Shown here: positions 49,333 to 58,240 of the stretch, piece by piece
Layout: each line of letters opens with the position of its first letter
How positions within the stretch are numbered: the first letter of the stretch is position 1
Assembly: GCF_945836005.1 (NCBI RefSeq)
Contig: NZ_OX241534.1
Location: 434,001-498,000 of the forward strand
Length of the DNA stretch: 64,000 nt
From: Candidatus Nitrosacidococcus sp. I8
GTDB lineage: Bacteria; Pseudomonadota; Gammaproteobacteria; Nitrosococcales; Nitrosococcaceae
Direction of reading: 5' to 3'
Notes under the pieces: generated by a model
Told to the model about the DNA's origin: nothing
Databases searched by the model: none
Seen by the model: the letters and a program-made list of their open reading frames with translations, nothing else
Translations under genes and position numbers: made by a program

Positions 49333-49370
49333 ATATATTAGAAATTTTGAATTTAAAAAAGGAAAAATTA

Positions 49371-50240
49371 ATGAATAAAAATTATCTCATATTTGGGCGT
49401 ATTGGATTACTGGTTTTAAGTCAAACAGCTATTGCCCACACAACAATCAAAGAAGGTAGTATTGAGGGAACAACCTTATACACTGCTGACGTGATTAATC
49501 ATGGCTGTGTCTCTGGAACCAATCCAAAAATTCCAGTGATTGCAGAATCAGTTGTTTTCCCTAACGGATCAGATTCTGTAGCTACGGTATTATCTAATTC
49601 TGGGGATGCAGAACAGCCTATTGATATTAATAGTGTAATAGAAGGGGGGGCATTGACTATTATTCCTACAGGGATTCAGGATAAGAATGTATTTAATGTT
49701 CATACAGTACAAACGGATTCTCTTGGTAATGTACGTGGGTTTCAGTACTTAAGTAATTCAAGTAGTAATACACGTGCGTTTAATTACTCAATACCTACTT
49801 TAACTATTCCACCGGGACCACAAAGTGTAACAGGGCTTCCTGCCTCTTCAGCTACAACTAACAATGCTGCTCCTCAAGGTCAAGAAGGGGAGTTACAGCT
49901 AGATTTAGTAGGGGTAATTCCTTTTAAATTAGCAGGGGTATCTTTTCAAGCAAGCTCTTGTGCAACACAATTAAATATTCGGATTGGTATTGTGGATTGG
50001 TGTACTCAAGGAACAGATGATCAGCGTAATGATATTTGGATTGGCCATACCACGTCTGTATTTAATGAGACTGATAGAATTGCTACAGGTACTTTGGGAT
50101 ATTGGCCAACTTTAACTATTACTCGTGATTTGGCAAAGAATCCATTGCCTGAGAGTTGCGGAGGGGGGCAAATTGTTGCAGTAGAGCCTTCAGATGACGC
50201 TATAGACACCTACTTACCTATGAGTGGATTTACGCCTTAA
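49371..50240 (+). CDS. secreted protein, first gene of the redox cluster
   Basis: The 289-residue protein begins at the ATG preceded by AAAAAGGAAAAATT, with signal peptide LIFGRIGLLVLSQTAIA. The mature protein starts HTTIKEGSIEGTTLYTADVINHGC and contains further cysteines (SCATQL, WCTQGT, SCGGG), so disulphides or metal binding are likely. The N-terminal His right after signal cleavage resembles copper-binding N-termini (e.g. LPMO/CopC style), which is inference. No family is recognised. It is the leading gene, 57 bases from the STN-HEAT gene. Confidence 0.75.
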   Translation: MNKNYLIFGRIGLLVLSQTAIAHTTIKEGSIEGTTLYTADVINHGCVSGTNPKIPVIAESVVFPNGSDSVATVLSNSGDAEQPIDINSVIEGGALTIIPTGIQDKNVFNVHTVQTDSLGNVRGFQYLSNSSSNTRAFNYSIPTLTIPPGPQSVTGLPASSATTNNAAPQGQEGELQLDLVGVIPFKLAGVSFQASSCATQLNIRIGIVDWCTQGTDDQRNDIWIGHTTSVFNETDRIATGTLGYWPTLTITRDLAKNPLPESCGGGQIVAVEPSDDAIDTYLPMSGFTP

Positions 50241-50297
50241 ACAAAAAAGAGTTTGTGGATAATTATAGATTTTTTAAATAATTTGTGGCCTTGGATT

Positions 50298-51146
50298 ATG
50301 TGCTTAAAGCAATTATTTGTTGTTATTTTTCTCACTTATTCGATCAGTAGCTTTGGGGAAAAAATACCATCTACTGCGGATGGTAATCTAATACAGCTAG
50401 AAGTCACTCAAGCTCCCTTAGAGCAAGTACTTAAAATTATTGAAGATCAAAGTAACCCTCGGATACATATCCATAGTGCTTTAGAAGGAGATCGGCTTAT
50501 AAATGCAAATTGTGTCGGTATGCCGCTTATAGTATTGAAATGTGCTCTCGGAAAGGATACTAATCTTGTATATCAGTATGAACATCAAACAGCTACTGAC
50601 CATCTACCCCCCCACCTTGCTCAAATATGGATTCTCAATAAGAATTCAAAAAGAGCAAATCTACAAGAAGATTCCCCTGAAGATCAATTACCTCTTTGCA
50701 ATGAAGAGAAAAATACGAATAGCCATCCTTCGTATCAATTGTCTTCAGAGGGAACACTTAATTTATCTTCAAATGAAATTAATCGTTTAGCTGAGCTTTC
50801 GCAATCATCCGATCCAAACCAGAGAAAAGCTGCCTTAGCTCGCCTTGCTCTTACTCATCAGGGAGACGAGTCTGTTAGGGAGGTAATGGAAGCTGCATTA
50901 CAAGATTCTAGTTCTGAAGTAAGAGCGCAGGCGATTTTTGGTCTAACTAGGACCCATAACCCTAATATTAATCATATACTAAGCACAGCTCTAAATGATG
51001 AGGATATGAATGTACGTCTAATGGCTATAGGTCATACGGAAAACACTGATTTACTTCAGATAGCATTAGAAGATTCAGATCCAAACGTGCAGAATTTTGC
51101 AAAAATGAGATTAGAGCAAATATCAAACGGTATGTATGAGAAATAG
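50298..51146 (+). CDS. secreted STN-like / HEAT-repeat protein
   Basis: I choose the ATG at 50298 (signal peptide LKQLFVVIFLTYSISSFG), though a TTG at 50253 is open. The mature N-terminal part (QLEVTQAPLEQVLKIIEDQS, with CVGMPLIVLKCALG) resembles the short STN domain of secretins and TonB receptors. The C-terminal half (about residues 160-282) is built of HEAT-like repeats (RKAALARLALTHQGDESVREVMEAAL, SSEVRAQAIFGLTRTHN, DMNVRLMAIGHTEN). Such a scaffold could dock partner proteins at the outer membrane. It is coupled with the two small secreted proteins downstream. Confidence 0.75.
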   Translation: MCLKQLFVVIFLTYSISSFGEKIPSTADGNLIQLEVTQAPLEQVLKIIEDQSNPRIHIHSALEGDRLINANCVGMPLIVLKCALGKDTNLVYQYEHQTATDHLPPHLAQIWILNKNSKRANLQEDSPEDQLPLCNEEKNTNSHPSYQLSSEGTLNLSSNEINRLAELSQSSDPNQRKAALARLALTHQGDESVREVMEAALQDSSSEVRAQAIFGLTRTHNPNINHILSTALNDEDMNVRLMAIGHTENTDLLQIALEDSDPNVQNFAKMRLEQISNGMYEK

Positions 51147-51155
51147 AGGTGAGCT

Positions 51156-51608
51156 ATGAGAAAATTTATGCTTTGGAACGGGATAATTGGTTTATTTATT
51201 TTAGGGACTTCTATTCAAGCGACTGCCCATAATCAAATTGGATCCCTAGGAGATCCGGCAGATGCTACAGATTATTATATGGTGCAATGTTCTACTGATG
51301 AGGGAGGTACCACAGGACAGCTTTATTTACAAATTTTTGATGGCACGACTACTCAAGGAGGAGGTAAAGTAAGTGTTGTTGGTGAATTTCCTGCAGGAAA
51401 TATTGCCACCACTGCTTCTGATCCAGATAGATTCAGCCCGATGCCTGGTGGTCCTTCCAGTCTTCTCAAACCTGGAACTGATGGTACCTATAATATGTTT
51501 GTTCATAAACTAAAGGAGGGAGTAAAGCAGTATAATGTAACTTACCATTGTCAATCGTCTGAAGGTGCTCATACCGGCACCTCTATCCTAACCATCCAAG
51601 ATCAGTAA
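51156..51608 (+). CDS. small secreted protein, paralog 1
   Basis: The 150-residue protein has a good ribosome site (GAGGTGA), a signal peptide (IIGLFILGTSIQATA) and a beta-rich mature domain starting HNQIGSLGDPADATDYYMVQCS, with two cysteines (VQCS, YHCQS) that probably pair. The end reads GAHTGTSILTIQDQ. A paralog follows 164 bases later with about 55-60% identity by eye. The mature N-terminus again starts with His. Ig-like or auracyanin-like folds are possible, unproven. It precedes a strong terminator. Confidence 0.75.
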   Translation: MRKFMLWNGIIGLFILGTSIQATAHNQIGSLGDPADATDYYMVQCSTDEGGTTGQLYLQIFDGTTTQGGGKVSVVGEFPAGNIATTASDPDRFSPMPGGPSSLLKPGTDGTYNMFVHKLKEGVKQYNVTYHCQSSEGAHTGTSILTIQDQ

Positions 51609-51771: not shown

Positions 51772-52218
51772 ATGAAAAAATTTATTTTTTGGAAAATAAC
51801 AAGTATTTTATTTATTTTGAGTTTTACTACCCAATCCATTGCACATACCCAAACTGGATCTTTAGGCGAAGATGCAGCAGCAACTGATTACTTTTTTGTA
51901 CTCTGTTCCACAGATCAAGGGGGTACCACAGGTAAGTTGGAACTTTCCATCTATGATGGTACGACTACTCCAGGAGGTGGAAAAATAAGTGCAGTTGGCG
52001 TATTTCCTCAAACTCAAGCTGCAGCTACTGCCTCTGATCCAAACAGATTAGATGATCAACCTGGGCCAATTGCTGCAGTTCCTGGTCCCGATGGGACTTA
52101 TTATGTATTTGTTCATAAATTAAAAAGTGGAGCTAAGAATTATAATCTGACTTATCATTGTAAATCTGCAGAAGGTGCTCACACGGGAGCTTCATTACTT
52201 ACTATTCAGGATCAATAA
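51772..52218 (+). CDS. small secreted protein, paralog 2
   Basis: The 148-residue protein parallels paralog 1: signal peptide (ITSILFILSFTTQSIA), mature start HTQTGSLGEDAAATDYFFVLCS, two cysteines, and C-terminus EGAHTGASLLTIQDQ. The TGAS (138-141) resembles the core of the ApbE flavinylation motif (D-G-x-S/T-G-A-T/S), and an apbE is in the same cluster. It has its own leader after the terminator, with a ribosome site AGGAGC. It is followed 17 bases later by the TlpA gene. Confidence 0.75.
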   Translation: MKKFIFWKITSILFILSFTTQSIAHTQTGSLGEDAAATDYFFVLCSTDQGGTTGKLELSIYDGTTTPGGGKISAVGVFPQTQAAATASDPNRLDDQPGPIAAVPGPDGTYYVFVHKLKSGAKNYNLTYHCKSAEGAHTGASLLTIQDQ

Positions 52219-52235
52219 CTCATTTAAATATTATA

Positions 52236-52733
52236 ATGGAATATTGGAAACTAGGAATTCTATATATCTTAATAAGCTTTTTTCCTATCAGCGGGCTGGG
52301 TGTGACAAATAATGAGCAAGCACCCAGTTGCTCTTTTTCTTCACTTGAGAACTCAGAGCAAATCACTCTAAAACAATTAAAAGGAGAAGTGGTTTATTTA
52401 GATTTTTGGGCTTCTTGGTGTATTCCTTGTTTAAAATCTTTTCCATTTTTAAACAATTTACATCATAAATATAGCCAACAAGGCTTGCATATTCTGGCAG
52501 TTAATTTAGACGAGCATTTAAAAGATGCTAAACAATTTCTTACTCAAACGCCTGCAGATTTTGAGGTAGCCATAGATCCAAATCAGCAATGTGCTAAAGC
52601 ATTTTCCCTTACAGGAATGCCTTCTTCTTTTGTGCTAAATAAGGATGGCACAATTTCCCATACCCATCTTGGCTTTAGAACTAGCGATATTAAAGAAATA
52701 ACAGCTGCAGTAGAGCAAGCCTTGCAAGAGTAG
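52236..52733 (+). CDS. TlpA-family thioredoxin-like protein
   Basis: The 165-residue periplasmic protein has a signal peptide and a TlpA/ResA redox fold with WASWCIPCLKSFPFL (Cys62, Cys65), conserved cis-Pro region LTGMPSSFVLNKDGTI. It likely reduces or isomerises disulphides of the cysteine-bearing secreted proteins in this cluster. DUF4266/DUF3570/ApbE clusters commonly contain such a thioredoxin. It is followed 20 bases later by the DUF4266 lipoprotein gene. Confidence 0.9.
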   Translation: MEYWKLGILYILISFFPISGLGVTNNEQAPSCSFSSLENSEQITLKQLKGEVVYLDFWASWCIPCLKSFPFLNNLHHKYSQQGLHILAVNLDEHLKDAKQFLTQTPADFEVAIDPNQQCAKAFSLTGMPSSFVLNKDGTISHTHLGFRTSDIKEITAAVEQALQE

Positions 52734-52753: not shown

Positions 52754-52993
52754 ATGAAAAAATATAGCCTTAAAAAACAAATAAAGCTTACCTTACCATT
52801 ACTCCTACTTCTAATTAGTGAAATATCAGGCTGTAGCCAAGTAGCACCATGGGAGCGAGGTAATCTTGCCCAGCCTCATATGGCACCAAGTACTCAACCA
52901 TTACAAGACTCATGGAAGCAACAAGTAACAAGTGGGAGAGAAGCAGCCGCAGGTGGGGGTAGTACCACAGGAGGTGGGTGTGGTTGTTATTGA
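52754..52993 (+). CDS. DUF4266 lipoprotein
   Basis: The 79-residue lipoprotein has lipobox ISGC (Cys27) and the DUF4266 landmarks SQVAPWERGNLAQPHM and the C-terminal SGREAAAGGG...GGGCGCY. The CxC at the C-terminus is strictly typical of the family, likely a metal or flavin-adjacent site. Homologs stand directly before DUF3570 genes, as here (70 bases). It is probably anchored to the outer membrane. Confidence 0.9.
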   Translation: MKKYSLKKQIKLTLPLLLLLISEISGCSQVAPWERGNLAQPHMAPSTQPLQDSWKQQVTSGREAAAGGGSTTGGGCGCY

Positions 52994-53063: not shown

Positions 53064-55706
53064 GTGAAGTTATCCAATAAAAAAAACAACAAGTTAGATA
53101 TAAGAAATAAAAACTATTCCATACAAGCACTTACTACTGCAGCACTTGCTTTACCTGGATTAGCTACTCTTTCAGCACAGGGTGCAAATTTTGTTGAAGA
53201 TTTTATGGATCTAAGCAATTTTCATCCTGAAGGGGGGAATTTTAGCTTTCAATATAATCATTTTTCGGAAGGGGATAATACGCCAAGTCAATTTCGAATG
53301 AAAAAAAATTCTATTCATATTGATAGTATTCATGGATCGGCACAGGTAGATCTCTCTGATCGACTCACTTTTATTGCTCAATTTATTCAAGATACTTGGT
53401 CTGGTGCTACCCAAATCACTACGGCTCCTGCTGCAGTTACTCGATGGAATCCCAATGCAGAATCAGGAGCTTCAGGGTTTTTAAATATTAAAGGAGGAAT
53501 CGTTAATTTCGATACTCAAACTGGACAGGGAGAGGCTACTATCCCTAATACTTTTGATCAACTAATGACAGGAGAAGTGATTAATGTGATGGCAGAGGCT
53601 TCTCCCGAAACAAGAAAGCAAGGAGATTTTGCCTTATCTTATCGATGGAATGATGATATTACCTATAACTTAGGTGGTGGAGATTCTGATGAAAGAGATT
53701 TTCATTCTCAATACGCTCGCTTTGGACAAACATGGGATTTTAACCGAAAACATACCACATTTAATTGGGGAGTGAGTTATACCCACAATAGTATCACTGC
53801 TGATCGCTTCCCCTTTAGACTTACTTCCGTACCAGTCAATCCGCAAACTCTGACCAACCCAGATTTTCCAGATTGGTCTGTCTATGCAAATAAAAAAAGA
53901 AATGATTTTTCTATTAATCTAGGAGTTTCTCAAATTTTAGATAAAAACTCTTTCTTTAATGCAGATTTTGTTTTTCTCCGCAATGATGGTTATAACTCCG
54001 ATCCCTATAAAGAAGCTCTTTTTTTAGTACCATTAACTACCCCAGGTACTGCATGGACTTATAGTCGCTATGATAATCGACCTGATCTTCGAGATCAGTT
54101 TACTTGGAAGTTTGGCTATACTCGTTTTTTTGAAAAACCAAAAGCAGCCCTAAAATTAAATTATAGTTTTTTTCACGATTCTTGGAATATAAGTGCTAAT
54201 ACTTTTGCTGCCTCATGGGCTCAGCCATTAGGTCGTGGTTGGACACTTACACCTAATGTTAGATATTACAGCCAAAATGCTGCAGATTTTTATAGTCCTT
54301 ATTTTATAGGATCTCAAACGCCTATATCATTACAAGATGCTTTAAACAATCAAGCTGCTTTACCCACACCACAATATTTTTCAAGCGATTATCGATTATC
54401 TGGCTATGGCGTAATTAGCGGTGGATTATCGTTAAGTAAGCAATTTATGGAAGGGGTTACTCTTGCAGGAAGTTTCAATTATTATCGCCTTCAAGGAGAC
54501 TTGAAACTAGGGGGAGGTGGTGTCGGAAATTTTGCTGATATCAGCTATTATTCTACCAATGCTTCCATAAATATGGATTTAGGTGCTTTAGCACGACCTG
54601 GCGGTATATTATCTAATCGCCATCATCATAGTAGTAACCATAGTGGGCATGGAGGACATAACATACCTGCTGCGGTTATGTATGCTCATATGTTGGATCA
54701 ACCGGGACAGCTCATGGTAGGAATGCGCTACTCCCATCATGGTTGGAAACCACCGAGTGGAGGAGATATGCTCCATGGTACTCAGCCTGTAGGTCTAACT
54801 GATATTATGAATAATGGTTGTGGTCCTAATGGGGCAACCTGCTCTATGGTGCCTATGCACATGGATATGAGTATGGAAATGATTGAATTTATGTACGCTC
54901 CCACTTCTTGGGTAACATTGATGCTCATGCCTTCATTTATGGATATGCAGATGCCGATGAAGAATATTCCAGGAGCTCCCCAAGTACTTCCAGGACAAAG
55001 TAGTATGATTATGCCCAGTGGTGTTTTAAGAGAGGCCACTGGAGGAATTGGGGATACTCAATTTCTCTCCCTATGGAGATTATATGATTCTCCTCATCAA
55101 ATGGTACCAAAAGCACAGCATCATATTCATCTTACTACAGGTCTAAGTGCTCCTACTGGTCATTCAGGGCTTACATTAAATGATCAAGAAACAGATACAA
55201 GTAGTCCTTATTTTGCTAAAGCCTTATTTTATGAATATGATATGCAGCTTGGCAGTGGCACTTGGGATTTTCTACCTAGCTTAACTTACACTGCTAATCT
55301 AGATCGTTGGTCTTGGGGTAGCCAGCTCGATGGCGTTGTACATAATGGAAGAAATGCTTCGGGTTATGCTTTAGGCGATCGATTTGAAGCAATGACTTGG
55401 GGGAGTTATGACATATTTAACTGGCTTTCCTTTTCAATGCGAGGTATGTATACCATGCAAGGGGAAGTTCAGGGCCGATTTAAAGAAAAACTGCAAACTA
55501 TTGGCGCTATGCCAGATCGCTATACCTATAATTACGGAGGACAATATTGGGATGTAGGATTTGGTCTTAATGCCGCAATTCAAGAGGGAACACTCAGAGG
55601 TAATCACCTTAGTCTCGAGTGGTTACAACCAGTTTATCAAAATGTAAATGGCTATCAGCTGGCTAAATCAGGATCCCTATTTGCCACTTGGGGCTTTGAT
55701 TTTTAG
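53064..55706 (+). CDS. DUF3570 outer-membrane protein fused to a Met/His-rich barrel
   Basis: The frame starts at GTG and gives 880 residues. Residues 1 to about 510 are DUF3570-like, with signal (LTTAALALPGLATLSAQG) and beta-strands (FIAQFIQDTWSGATQI; SALSYRW-like). Residues 517-535 are a His-rich linker (NRHHHSSNHSGHGGHN). Residues about 535-880 are another barrel-like domain with MYAHMLDQPGQLMVGMRYSHHGW and a Met-rich stretch MHMDMSMEMIEFMYAP...MDMQMPMKN (about 597-636). The Met-rich type is seen in copper-linked outer-membrane proteins. Normal DUF3570 proteins are near 400 residues, so this is a fusion. It ends ATWGFDF, an outer-membrane C-terminal motif. Confidence 0.82.
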   Translation: MKLSNKKNNKLDIRNKNYSIQALTTAALALPGLATLSAQGANFVEDFMDLSNFHPEGGNFSFQYNHFSEGDNTPSQFRMKKNSIHIDSIHGSAQVDLSDRLTFIAQFIQDTWSGATQITTAPAAVTRWNPNAESGASGFLNIKGGIVNFDTQTGQGEATIPNTFDQLMTGEVINVMAEASPETRKQGDFALSYRWNDDITYNLGGGDSDERDFHSQYARFGQTWDFNRKHTTFNWGVSYTHNSITADRFPFRLTSVPVNPQTLTNPDFPDWSVYANKKRNDFSINLGVSQILDKNSFFNADFVFLRNDGYNSDPYKEALFLVPLTTPGTAWTYSRYDNRPDLRDQFTWKFGYTRFFEKPKAALKLNYSFFHDSWNISANTFAASWAQPLGRGWTLTPNVRYYSQNAADFYSPYFIGSQTPISLQDALNNQAALPTPQYFSSDYRLSGYGVISGGLSLSKQFMEGVTLAGSFNYYRLQGDLKLGGGGVGNFADISYYSTNASINMDLGALARPGGILSNRHHHSSNHSGHGGHNIPAAVMYAHMLDQPGQLMVGMRYSHHGWKPPSGGDMLHGTQPVGLTDIMNNGCGPNGATCSMVPMHMDMSMEMIEFMYAPTSWVTLMLMPSFMDMQMPMKNIPGAPQVLPGQSSMIMPSGVLREATGGIGDTQFLSLWRLYDSPHQMVPKAQHHIHLTTGLSAPTGHSGLTLNDQETDTSSPYFAKALFYEYDMQLGSGTWDFLPSLTYTANLDRWSWGSQLDGVVHNGRNASGYALGDRFEAMTWGSYDIFNWLSFSMRGMYTMQGEVQGRFKEKLQTIGAMPDRYTYNYGGQYWDVGFGLNAAIQEGTLRGNHLSLEWLQPVYQNVNGYQLAKSGSLFATWGFDF

Positions 55707-55717
55707 CCCCTCTCTTT

Positions 55718-56662
55718 ATGAAGCTTTACCATCATCCTTTCAAGGCTATGGGTAGTCCTTGTGAACTTCAAATCTATGCAAAAAGTAAGATAAAAGCAGA
55801 AAGGACAATCAACGAAGTTATTGAAGAAATAAATCGGCTTGAAAATCTTTATTCCCGTTATAAACCAAAGAGTTTTCTTTCTCGAATTAACCAAGTAGCA
55901 GCTATTGGAGGGCATATCTCCGTGGATTATGAAACTCAAGGGCTACTTAACTATGCAGCTATTTGCTATACCCAAAGCGATGGGTTATTTGATATTACCT
56001 CTGGGATTTTACGCCGGGCTTGGAACTTCAAATCAGAAATTATCCCCAGTAGCTCAGAAATTCAGGTATTACTAGATAAAATTGGCTGGAAAAAGTTACG
56101 GTGGGAGCCTCCTGTACTCATATTCCCTTTAGCAGGCATGGAAATAGATTTTGGTGGAATTGTTAAAGAATATACCGCAGATAAAGTAGCTGCTTTAGCA
56201 CAACAAGCAGGGATTAAAGGAGGATTAGTTAATTTAGGGGGTGATATTAAAATTATTGGTCCAAGGATAGATGGGAATCCTTGGTGTATTGGAATTCGCC
56301 ATCCAGAGCAAAAAGGGATAGCAATCCGTAAAGTGTTGCTTCATCAAGGAGCTGTTGCCAGTAGTGGAGACTATGAGCGCTACCTTTTATTCAATGGGAT
56401 TCGTTATGGTCATATACTTAATCCCAAAACAGGCTGGCCAGTACAGCATTTAATTGCGGTAACCGTAATCAGTGATTTATGTGTAGTAGCTGGCAGCACT
56501 TCAACCATCGCTATGCTTAAGGAAAAAGAGGGAAAGCAATGGCTTGAAAATTCAGGGTTATCTTATTTTTGGGTAGATACTCAAGGTAACACCGGAGGTA
56601 CTTTAAATAACTTATTGCCTATTCAAAATAATAATATATCTGCTGTTGCTGTAGTTTCTTAA
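55718..56662 (+). CDS. apbE: FAD:protein FMN transferase ApbE, cluster copy without signal
   Basis: The 314-residue ApbE has the fold landmarks AMGSPCELQIYA, SDGLFDITSGILR, MEIDFGGIVKEYTADK, VNLGGDIKIIGP and ASSGDYERYLLF...YGHILNPKTGWPV. It has no signal peptide or lipobox, unlike the ApbE at 16339. In DUF4266/DUF3570 loci a similar signal-less ApbE is usual in my recollection, and its target is unknown. It starts 11 bases after the DUF3570 gene. If it acts in the cytoplasm it would have to modify precursor proteins before export. Confidence 0.92.
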   Translation: MKLYHHPFKAMGSPCELQIYAKSKIKAERTINEVIEEINRLENLYSRYKPKSFLSRINQVAAIGGHISVDYETQGLLNYAAICYTQSDGLFDITSGILRRAWNFKSEIIPSSSEIQVLLDKIGWKKLRWEPPVLIFPLAGMEIDFGGIVKEYTADKVAALAQQAGIKGGLVNLGGDIKIIGPRIDGNPWCIGIRHPEQKGIAIRKVLLHQGAVASSGDYERYLLFNGIRYGHILNPKTGWPVQHLIAVTVISDLCVVAGSTSTIAMLKEKEGKQWLENSGLSYFWVDTQGNTGGTLNNLLPIQNNNISAVAVVS

Positions 56663-56692: not shown

Positions 56693-58240
56693 ATGCCTAG
56701 ATCTGAAAAAATAAGGTTGTATCTCACCGTGTTTTTGGTAGGAATTGCAGTGATGATTGTAGAGTTATTAGGCACTCGAATTGTTGCCCCTTTTTATGGA
56801 GCCAGTCTTTATGTCTGGTCTGCTTTAATTTCAGTGACTATGATGGCACTTGCTGGAGGGTATTTTATTGGGGGTTATTGGGCTGATCGAACTAAAAAAC
56901 CCTACTTATCTCTAGTGATTGCATGCGCTGCTTTATGTATTTTTTTAATTCCTTGGATTACTCGCCCTGTATTACTTGCTACTGATTCTTTTGAGTTACA
57001 GCTGGGTGCTTTTTTAAGTGCATTCATCTTATTTTCCCCTTGCTTAGTTTTTTTAGGCATGGTCAGCCCTATGACTATTCGCTTATCTTCCTTTGCATTG
57101 GAAAAAGTGGGCGCTAGCGCTGGCACAATTTACGGTATTAGTACCTTGGGGAGTGTCATAGGTACTTTATTTTTAGGATTTTATTTATTTCCTAGAATAG
57201 GATCTTATCAAATTCTAATTGGGCTTGGGGCAGTGTTATTTATCCTTTCGGGAATTACGGCTTTTTATGAAAGGAAAAAATCAAAAGTTTATATTTTTTT
57301 TCTATCCATAATATTTATTACTGCAGTCGCTATTGGAGTATTAGGGATAATAAATACTAATCGCAATAATTCTATATACCCTGGAGGGCATTTATTTGAA
57401 ATTTTATCTACACAAGAGAGTTTATATGGCTGGGTAAGGGTGATTGATGAGCCAGAGAAAGATCTCCGCTTGCTTGCTACTGACTCTTCTATAATTGGGG
57501 CAGCTAGTATCCACAATGGCCAAAATAGGCTAGCGTATCAAGATATTATCCCTTTACTTCCTCTCTTAGCGAATCACTCTGTAGAGCACGCTTTGCTTAT
57601 AGGACAGGGAGCAGGGCATATGGCAACAGTACTTAAAAGCCAATATGGAATTACAGTGGATACCTTAGAAATTAATTCTGCCGTTGCTCAAGCTGCAACC
57701 GATTATTTTGGTTTTATTCCTACCGGAAAAGTAATGATAGGTGATGCTCGCTATAAAATCCGCCATTTAAAAGACACTTATGACTTAATTATTCATGATT
57801 GTTTCACTGGAGGAGCAGAGCCTGAATATTTACTTACTGTAGAGACTCTGATTCAATTACGATCCTTACTTTCAGAGCAAGGAATGTTAGTGCTTAATTT
57901 TGTAGCTTTTGCTGAAGAGGGTAAAAATCCTGCCCTTGCCTCTGTTGCAAAGACTATAGATCAGGTTTTTCCTCATCAAACCGTTTTTATTTCTGATCCC
58001 GGTAAAGATTTTAACGATTTTATTTTTTTAGCTAATAGTAGTCCTATTTATCTAAATAAAAAATTTCTTAGCCTTAGTCAAAGTATTTGGCTGAAGCAAC
58101 GGTTATTTACAGTAGATAAAACAAAAGGAATCCTATTAACGGATAATTTCCACCCCTTAGCACAGCTACAAACTAAAAAAGCAAGTTATTATCGATCTAC
58201 CTTAATTGATTGGTTAGGTACCGATCTTTTAATAAGATAG
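56693..58240 (+). CDS. fused membrane/spermidine-synthase-like protein
   Basis: The 515-residue protein has about seven N-terminal transmembrane helices (VGIAVMIVELLGTRIVAPFYGASLYVWSALISVTMMALAGGYFIGG) and a C-terminal Rossmann aminopropyltransferase-like domain (HALLIGQGAGHMATVLKSQYGITVDTLEINSAV, IGDARYKIRHL, YDLIIHDCFTGGAEP). The catalytic DCF/DD region is altered (HDCFTGG), as in many fused homologs, whose substrate is not known. It starts 30 bases after apbE and may belong to that operon or to the following export genes. Confidence 0.88.
   Translation: MPRSEKIRLYLTVFLVGIAVMIVELLGTRIVAPFYGASLYVWSALISVTMMALAGGYFIGGYWADRTKKPYLSLVIACAALCIFLIPWITRPVLLATDSFELQLGAFLSAFILFSPCLVFLGMVSPMTIRLSSFALEKVGASAGTIYGISTLGSVIGTLFLGFYLFPRIGSYQILIGLGAVLFILSGITAFYERKKSKVYIFFLSIIFITAVAIGVLGIINTNRNNSIYPGGHLFEILSTQESLYGWVRVIDEPEKDLRLLATDSSIIGAASIHNGQNRLAYQDIIPLLPLLANHSVEHALLIGQGAGHMATVLKSQYGITVDTLEINSAVAQAATDYFGFIPTGKVMIGDARYKIRHLKDTYDLIIHDCFTGGAEPEYLLTVETLIQLRSLLSEQGMLVLNFVAFAEEGKNPALASVAKTIDQVFPHQTVFISDPGKDFNDFIFLANSSPIYLNKKFLSLSQSIWLKQRLFTVDKTKGILLTDNFHPLAQLQTKKASYYRSTLIDWLGTDLLIR

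Follow-up and report, generated by a model that had tools for sequence, protein, structure and literature searches.

A DUF3570 double-barrel fusion protein as a possible flavin-carrying outer-membrane copper reductase and importer

Introduction

DUF3570 is one of two domains for which flavinylation by ApbE has been demonstrated, and in a Chlorobium DUF3570 protein flavinylation was lost only when both [ST]GA[ST] motifs were mutated (PMC8238504). The DUF3570 gene clusters have been described as flavin-based electron-transfer systems whose acceptor is unknown, in a text that mentions neither copper nor methanotrophs nor ammonia oxidisers (PMC8238504). The locus described here lies in a 64,000-nucleotide stretch of the Candidatus Nitrosacidococcus sp. 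I8 genome (the window). It has in common with the DUF3570/ApbE module (Meheust et al. 2021, PMC8238504) both [ST]GA[ST] motifs, a thioredoxin, a DUF4266 protein ending in CxC and ApbE. Whereas the known DUF3570 members are about 420 aa long, the window adds a fused second barrel and three accessory families of secreted proteins.

The added parts also resemble known proteins. COG4313 channels (Pput2725, PDB 4rl8; SphA) are 12-stranded barrels for which uptake of hydrophobic molecules has been suggested (PMC4493636). The second barrel of the window shares this strand number, and the structural match also takes in the segment ahead of strand 1, but the barrel differs in its predicted Met-ladder lumen, its His-rich linker and the flavin barrel fused to it. 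GfcD and YjbH are double-barrel outer-membrane proteins (Solan et al. 2021, as cited in PMC9603273) and, like the window fusion, carry two barrels per polypeptide; they consist of other domains in a context of polysaccharide export, and no flavin motif is described for them. The copper chaperone YcnI/DUF1775 (PDB 7me6, 7mek) binds Cu(II) through its N-terminal His (PMC8424229). The first protein of the window's operon resembles it in predicted fold and in the His at its predicted mature N-terminus, and has a conserved Trp that may be a counterpart of the one in the YcnI copper site (His, Glu and Trp), but it is larger, has extra Cys and C-terminal parts and lacks a PF07987 match. Copper acquisition at the methanotroph cell surface has likewise been proposed for MopE/CorA (PMC3912023), which, unlike the fusion, are not barrels but soluble proteins of the surface whose copper site is based on kynurenine. 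The passages found in papers on methanotroph copper proteins and in a beta-proteobacterial copper survey do not mention the fusion.

A conserved fusion of two predicted barrels

The open reading frame listing shows 880 codons open from a GTG to the stop, encoding first a DUF3570 barrel, which a His-rich linker then joins to a Met-rich COG4313-type barrel (Table 1). The preliminary description had taken this frame for a genuine, uninterrupted fusion of halves that are usually separate genes, and the comparison with other genomes agrees on each point. In the family's five other genomes the corresponding frames all measure 882-900 aa. The architecture is shared by these genomes and by 79 scanned loci, so the fusion does not result from a frameshift or an assembly error. 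Each half occurs once in the host's 1.85-Mb single-contig genome. DUF3570 frames of the ordinary kind mostly span 380-560 aa and the second domain alone forms proteins of about 340-400 aa, so the length of the fusion is not one common to DUF3570, a possibility raised at the outset.

Table 1. Features of the fusion gene and its neighbours, by position in the window.
Feature	Position	Strand	Basis
YcnI-fold secreted protein, His31 at predicted mature N-terminus	49347..50240	+	AF2 and VIA-align
HEAT-repeat secreted protein	50253..51146	+	HEAT_2 E 4.3e-12
SM148 family small secreted protein, first copy	51156..51608	+	family comparison
SM148 family small secreted protein, second copy	51772..52218	+	family comparison
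TlpA/ResA-type thioredoxin, WCIPC motif	52236..52733	+	Redoxin E 5e-24; ResA-like below cut-off
DUF4266 small protein, 79 aa, ends GCGCY	52754..52993	+	PF14086 E 3.4e-19
Fusion protein, 880 aa, GTG start	53064..55706	+	ORF, Pfam, AF2 two-barrel model, structural matches
N-terminal barrel, residues 54-506, DUF3570, ~16 strands	53223..54581	+	PF12094, AF2, structural matches
Predicted FMN-attachment motif 1, SGAT, residues 113-116, in DTWSGAT	53400..53411	+
Predicted FMN-attachment motif 2, SGAS, residues 134-137	53463..53474	+
His-rich linker, residues 517-535, predicted disordered	54612..54668	+	AF2; His counts in fusions
Met-rich C-terminal barrel of 12 strands and COG4313-type fold, residues 537-880	54672..55703	+	VIA-align, AF2, standalone homologues
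Met ladder, residues 598-632 (M600, 602, 604, 606, 610, 620, 622, 628, 630)	54855..54959	+	same side of strands 2-3
ApbE, FAD:protein FMN transferase, without obvious signal peptide	55718..56662	+	PF02424 E 1.1e-72
Spermine-synthase-like protein, N-terminal MFS-like region	56693..58240	+	PF01564 just below cut-off

The N-terminal half contains the full DUF3570 domain that had been read there: residues 21-496 match PF12094 at 346.7 bits, where the cut-off is 25, with an E-value of 2.4e-103 and over nearly the whole model (positions 2-426 of 427). Using AlphaFold2 (AF2) with an alignment of 69 fusions (mean pLDDT 78, pTM 0.76), we obtained a model with two separate strand sets, residues 59-505 and 550-879, and not the single large barrel that had been named as the alternative. 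Structural alignment with VIA-align shows that residues 54-506 match 14- to 16-stranded barrels (BamA, PgaA-type, CdiB; Z ~18-22), while the nearest solved structure for residues 537-880 is the COG4313 channel 4rl8 (Z 23.7, 253 residues, rmsd 2.6 Å). The model and these matches to separate residue ranges support two predicted barrels in one chain, an arrangement that is unusual, as first stated, but not without precedent, given GfcD and YjbH. VIA-align resolved the two barrels where Foldseek alone gave mainly TonB receptors; Foldseek aligned the latter across both barrels at an rmsd of ~20 Å, and we rejected them as matches for the full model. Searching the sequences of solved structures returned chance crystallin matches only.

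Both flavin motifs are conserved. G114, A115 and T116 of the first are present in 69 of 69 fusions and its first position varies; the second keeps GA[ST] at 135-137 in all 69, with variation at position 134. With both [ST]GA[ST] motifs and the partners thioredoxin, DUF4266 and ApbE present, the fusion belongs with the DUF3570 proteins of the module, and its sequence predicts flavinylation at two sites. Because ApbE apparently lacks a signal peptide, flavinylation might precede export, taking place in the cytoplasm. The ApbE proteins of DUF3570 loci, fused or unfused (L037-L213, L087-L104), start just before the catalytic domain.

The linker is as rich in His as had been noted (6 His in 31 residues), and each of the 69 fusions has at least 3 His there (mean 6.6; 3 to 9 in the linkers listed). 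Residues 513-530 are disordered in the AF2 model (pLDDT <50). An even strand count in both barrels means that both linker ends should face the periplasm, and by this model the linker itself is most probably periplasmic and not at the surface, one of the two places considered for metal binding in the preliminary description.

The second domain, of about 360 residues, has no match in Pfam or NCBIfam. The window protein does not match PF13557 at E<=1, while the standalone relative L054 does (E 1.5e-10); with a predicted 4rl8-type fold and no such match, we file the second domain as the same fold and a distant relative, not as a member of the profile. At the same threshold, the window protein gives no match to CopB/PcoB (PF05275). 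The Met repeats seen beforehand amount to 13 Met within the 41 residues 595-635, and the densest 40-residue segment also holds 13, a number that none of 5000 shuffles of the protein reaches (maximum 9). All 69 fusions keep M551, M602, M604, M606, M610, M620, M622, M628, M630, M727 and H542, 67 of them keep M600, and most of the same Met positions are invariant in standalone homologues too. On strands 600-611 and 617-634 the Mets lie on the face of D608, T/N618 and Q624, alternating with L607, L609, L617, L619, L621 and F625 on the opposite face. Since they share this face, opposite Leu and Phe, the Met ladder should point into the barrel lumen.

Operon and neighbouring genes

The operon runs from the YcnI-like gene through HEAT, two SM148 genes, thioredoxin, DUF4266 and the fusion to ApbE. 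Thioredoxin, DUF4266, DUF3570 and ApbE form the known module and are present at unfused loci too; a CGC motif ends 87 of 87 DUF4266 homologues. The genes upstream distinguish the fusion loci: among 88 of them, a YcnI-like gene is found at 52, HEAT at 45 and SM148 at 77, and these three occur beside none of 19 ordinary DUF3570 loci. The downstream spermine-synthase-like gene neighbours 34 of the 88. Between 58210 and 62220 the window holds a pair of ABC-2 type exporter genes and, after it, three sulfotransferase-like genes, and genes of matching size follow the fusion operon in the family's other genomes (L037-L041).

We interrogated the fold of the first protein after the pattern of its His residues had raised the suspicion of YcnI homology. 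A conserved His at the mature N-terminus is a hallmark of N-terminal-His metal sites. VIA-align of the AF2 model gives the copper-bound and apo YcnI structures as best matches (Z 11.5, 11.4 and 11.0; top match 127 of 128 residues, rmsd 2.7), and the next unrelated fold follows at Z 7.1. Model residues 31-260 align on YcnI chain residues 27-154 and place His31 on YcnI His27. H31, H52 and W231 are conserved in at least 97% of the YcnI-like family (His31 97%, Trp231 100%). Foldseek alone left YcnI outside its top 50, and re-alignment of its 1000 best chains with VIA-align ranked YcnI first. None of nine YcnI-like members matches PF07987 at E<=5, and the family has no match among the sequences of solved structures. 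With the YcnI fold and no PF07987 match, the predicted structure makes the operon's first protein a remote YcnI member by fold only.

SM148 gives no Pfam match. H25, C45, H129, C130 and H137 are invariant in 7 sequences, and the family shows a His directly after the predicted signal peptide (86% conserved), two Cys that are nearly invariant and another two conserved His, a pattern consistent with a possible new metal-binding family. In Methylotuvimicrobium buryatense (L043:2696-3802), SM148 and the YcnI-like protein are joined in one protein of 368 aa, which supports a functional link between the two.

Distribution with copper monooxygenases

Scanning GTDB genomes with an alignment of nine fusions returned 565 relatives, from which the best 79 loci were kept; with the second domain alone as query, the scan gave no match. 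All of these best 79 are full-length fusions, one of them incomplete. They come from methanotrophs (Methylobacter, Methylomonas, Methylovulum, Methyloglobulus, Methylotuvimicrobium and others), Nitrosomonas or proteobacterial bins, and the majority encode PmoA/AmoA, as the host genome encodes AmoA. PmoA/AmoA was found in 45 of 56 fusion genomes tested, and the remaining 11 are all fragmented or binned assemblies. Among 369 genomes drawn evenly from the class, DUF3570 occurs in 94 and PmoA/AmoA in 10; the three long fused frames seen in this sample fall in three of these 10 (Fisher p 1.4e-5, uncorrected for kinship).

Within the methanotroph order Methylococcales (121 genomes), 63 genomes have the fusion, 93 have PmoA and 52 have both, leaving 41 of the 93 PmoA-positive genomes without the fusion. 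In the Nitrosomonadaceae (the family of G424), the fusion is found in 38 genomes of genus g237, by grouping Nitrosomonas, almost throughout the genus; three other genera of the family are without it, and one standalone homologue occurs there. Thus, the fusion accompanies bacteria with copper monooxygenases but is not obligatory for them. Shared ancestry accounts for part of the genome association.

A possible copper reductase and importer

Combining these observations, we propose the following mechanism. The neighbouring ApbE would attach FMN to two sites on the DUF3570 barrel, and thiol electrons would pass from DsbD, which is encoded elsewhere in the host genome, through the TlpA-like thioredoxin and the CxC protein DUF4266 to the flavin. 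At the outer membrane the flavin would reduce Cu(II); the His-rich linker would hold the resulting Cu(I), and the Met ladder of the COG4313-type barrel would pass it to the periplasm. There the YcnI-like and probably the SM148 proteins would take it for loading AMO or pMMO. Flavinylation, the copper substrate, the electron route and the inward direction are all steps that we infer. Copper is the likely substrate, given the conserved Met and His, the gene neighbourhood and the taxonomic distribution. Inward reductive transport is considerably less certain, with a chance somewhat below even. That the whole is a flavin-carrying outer-membrane copper reductase and importer serving copper monooxygenases comes close to an even chance without reaching it. 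We regard as doubtful the stronger proposal of a dedicated copper importer of a new type, in which a covalent-flavin reductase barrel and a Met-ladder barrel, coupled in one chain and driven by periplasmic thiol electrons and not by TonB, bring copper inward as Cu(I) for the pMMO and AMO of methanotrophs and ammonia oxidisers.

Several points weigh against a role in copper uptake, the first being that copper monooxygenases do not require the fusion. The fold of the second barrel is one associated with hydrophobic uptake, and in the neighbourhoods checked no copper genes were found consistently beside its standalone relatives. Met-rich outer-membrane proteins can, moreover, serve copper tolerance and not uptake. 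For the fusion this would mean that surplus copper is bound or let go at the outer membrane by the Met barrel and His linker, while the flavin barrel acts as a redox valve, in the manner of CopB/PcoB. The Met-rich character does resemble known copper-resistance outer-membrane proteins, and putative periplasmic copper binders are encoded nearby. We nevertheless consider tolerance unlikely: in addition to the missing PF05275 match, no gene for a CopA multicopper oxidase, Cus or P-type ATPase was recognised in the operon, and restriction to bacteria that need much copper agrees better with supply than with defence.

The description of DUF3570 clusters as flavin-based electron-transfer systems (PMC8238504) would also suit extracellular electron transfer or redox balance, with electrons leaving the flavin barrel across the outer membrane for external acceptors, and with a structural or assembly role for the second barrel and its metal residues. 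This leaves the invariant Mets, the YcnI-like neighbour and the association with copper monooxygenases unexplained, and we give it a rather low probability.

Reductive uptake of another metal, chiefly iron as Fe(III)/Fe(II), could use the same machine, and a VIT1 iron transporter is present in 25 DUF3570 clusters (PMC8238504). An independent fusion on plasmid pMSC49c of Methylosinus sp. C49 (L214:6780-8996) joins an OMP_b-brl barrel through a His-rich linker to a Met-rich COG4313-type barrel in 738 aa, and adjoins feoB and a PepSY_TM protein, a reductase setting that points to iron there and counts against a copper reading. The Met barrel thus seems to have been joined to another barrel via a His-rich linker at least twice, and with the second fusion in an iron-uptake setting the metal could differ between systems. 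Met ladders, however, prefer soft Cu(I), the predicted fold of the operon's first protein is that of the Cu(II) protein YcnI, and the fusion operons yielded no recognisable iron gene, which makes iron improbable for the fusion of the window. An ordinary COG4313 role, in which the second barrel imports a small hydrophobic molecule and the DUF3570 tether fixes stoichiometry only, has the 4rl8 match and the uptake attributed to these channels in its favour but is very unlikely, as it explains neither the Met/His conservation in fused and standalone proteins nor the copper-type neighbour.

To our knowledge, how copper enters across the outer membrane of methanotrophs and ammonia oxidisers is unsettled, except for methanobactin uptake. 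The fusion may be the missing door through which copper is reduced and admitted in these methane and ammonia burners, and its single origin, flavin motifs, Met-lined barrel and YcnI-fold neighbour make it a concrete and testable candidate for copper uptake. If the copper reading is true, DUF3570 would gain a substrate and an outer-membrane barrel would be seen to work as a metal reductase. Flavinylated DUF3570 with its gene module, the fold of COG4313, double-barrel proteins as a class and YcnI were already known; new, within the literature searched, are the clade-wide fusion, its tie to copper-monooxygenase bacteria, the partners with a YcnI fold or of the SM148 family and the invariance of the Met ladder.

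Origin of the fusion and gene copies

In phylogenetic trees the fused C-terminal domains form one clade (support 100), and so do the fused DUF3570 domains (support 98) with L139 counted as fused. We had considered L139 as an unfused member of this clade and rejected it, because its frame is cut by the contig end. By these trees, the fusion arose once, in one DUF3570 clade. Nitrosomonas sequences nest within those of methanotrophs, which suggests transfer of the fusion between the two groups.

An 808-aa frame (G208/L055) was examined as a further fusion and rejected: its first 345 residues match no barrel, the frame looks over-extended, and its real start is probably near MRKLKHALAL. Public plasmid annotation names the standalone second domain 'transporter' or 'alpha-amylase', and the latter label, evidently a misannotation, is attached to the Met-rich barrel in several Methylocystis records (L215:8025-8966, L217:8007-8966).

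In G234 a decayed second copy of the cluster (L042:13600-14750) retains DUF4266 and, after it, a DUF3570-CTD gene that has lost a large internal part. Complete fusion genes stand side by side at two Methyloglobulus loci (L163 and L177, with three in L177) and likewise in G947 and G953, and the G947 genome has up to 17 separate matches.
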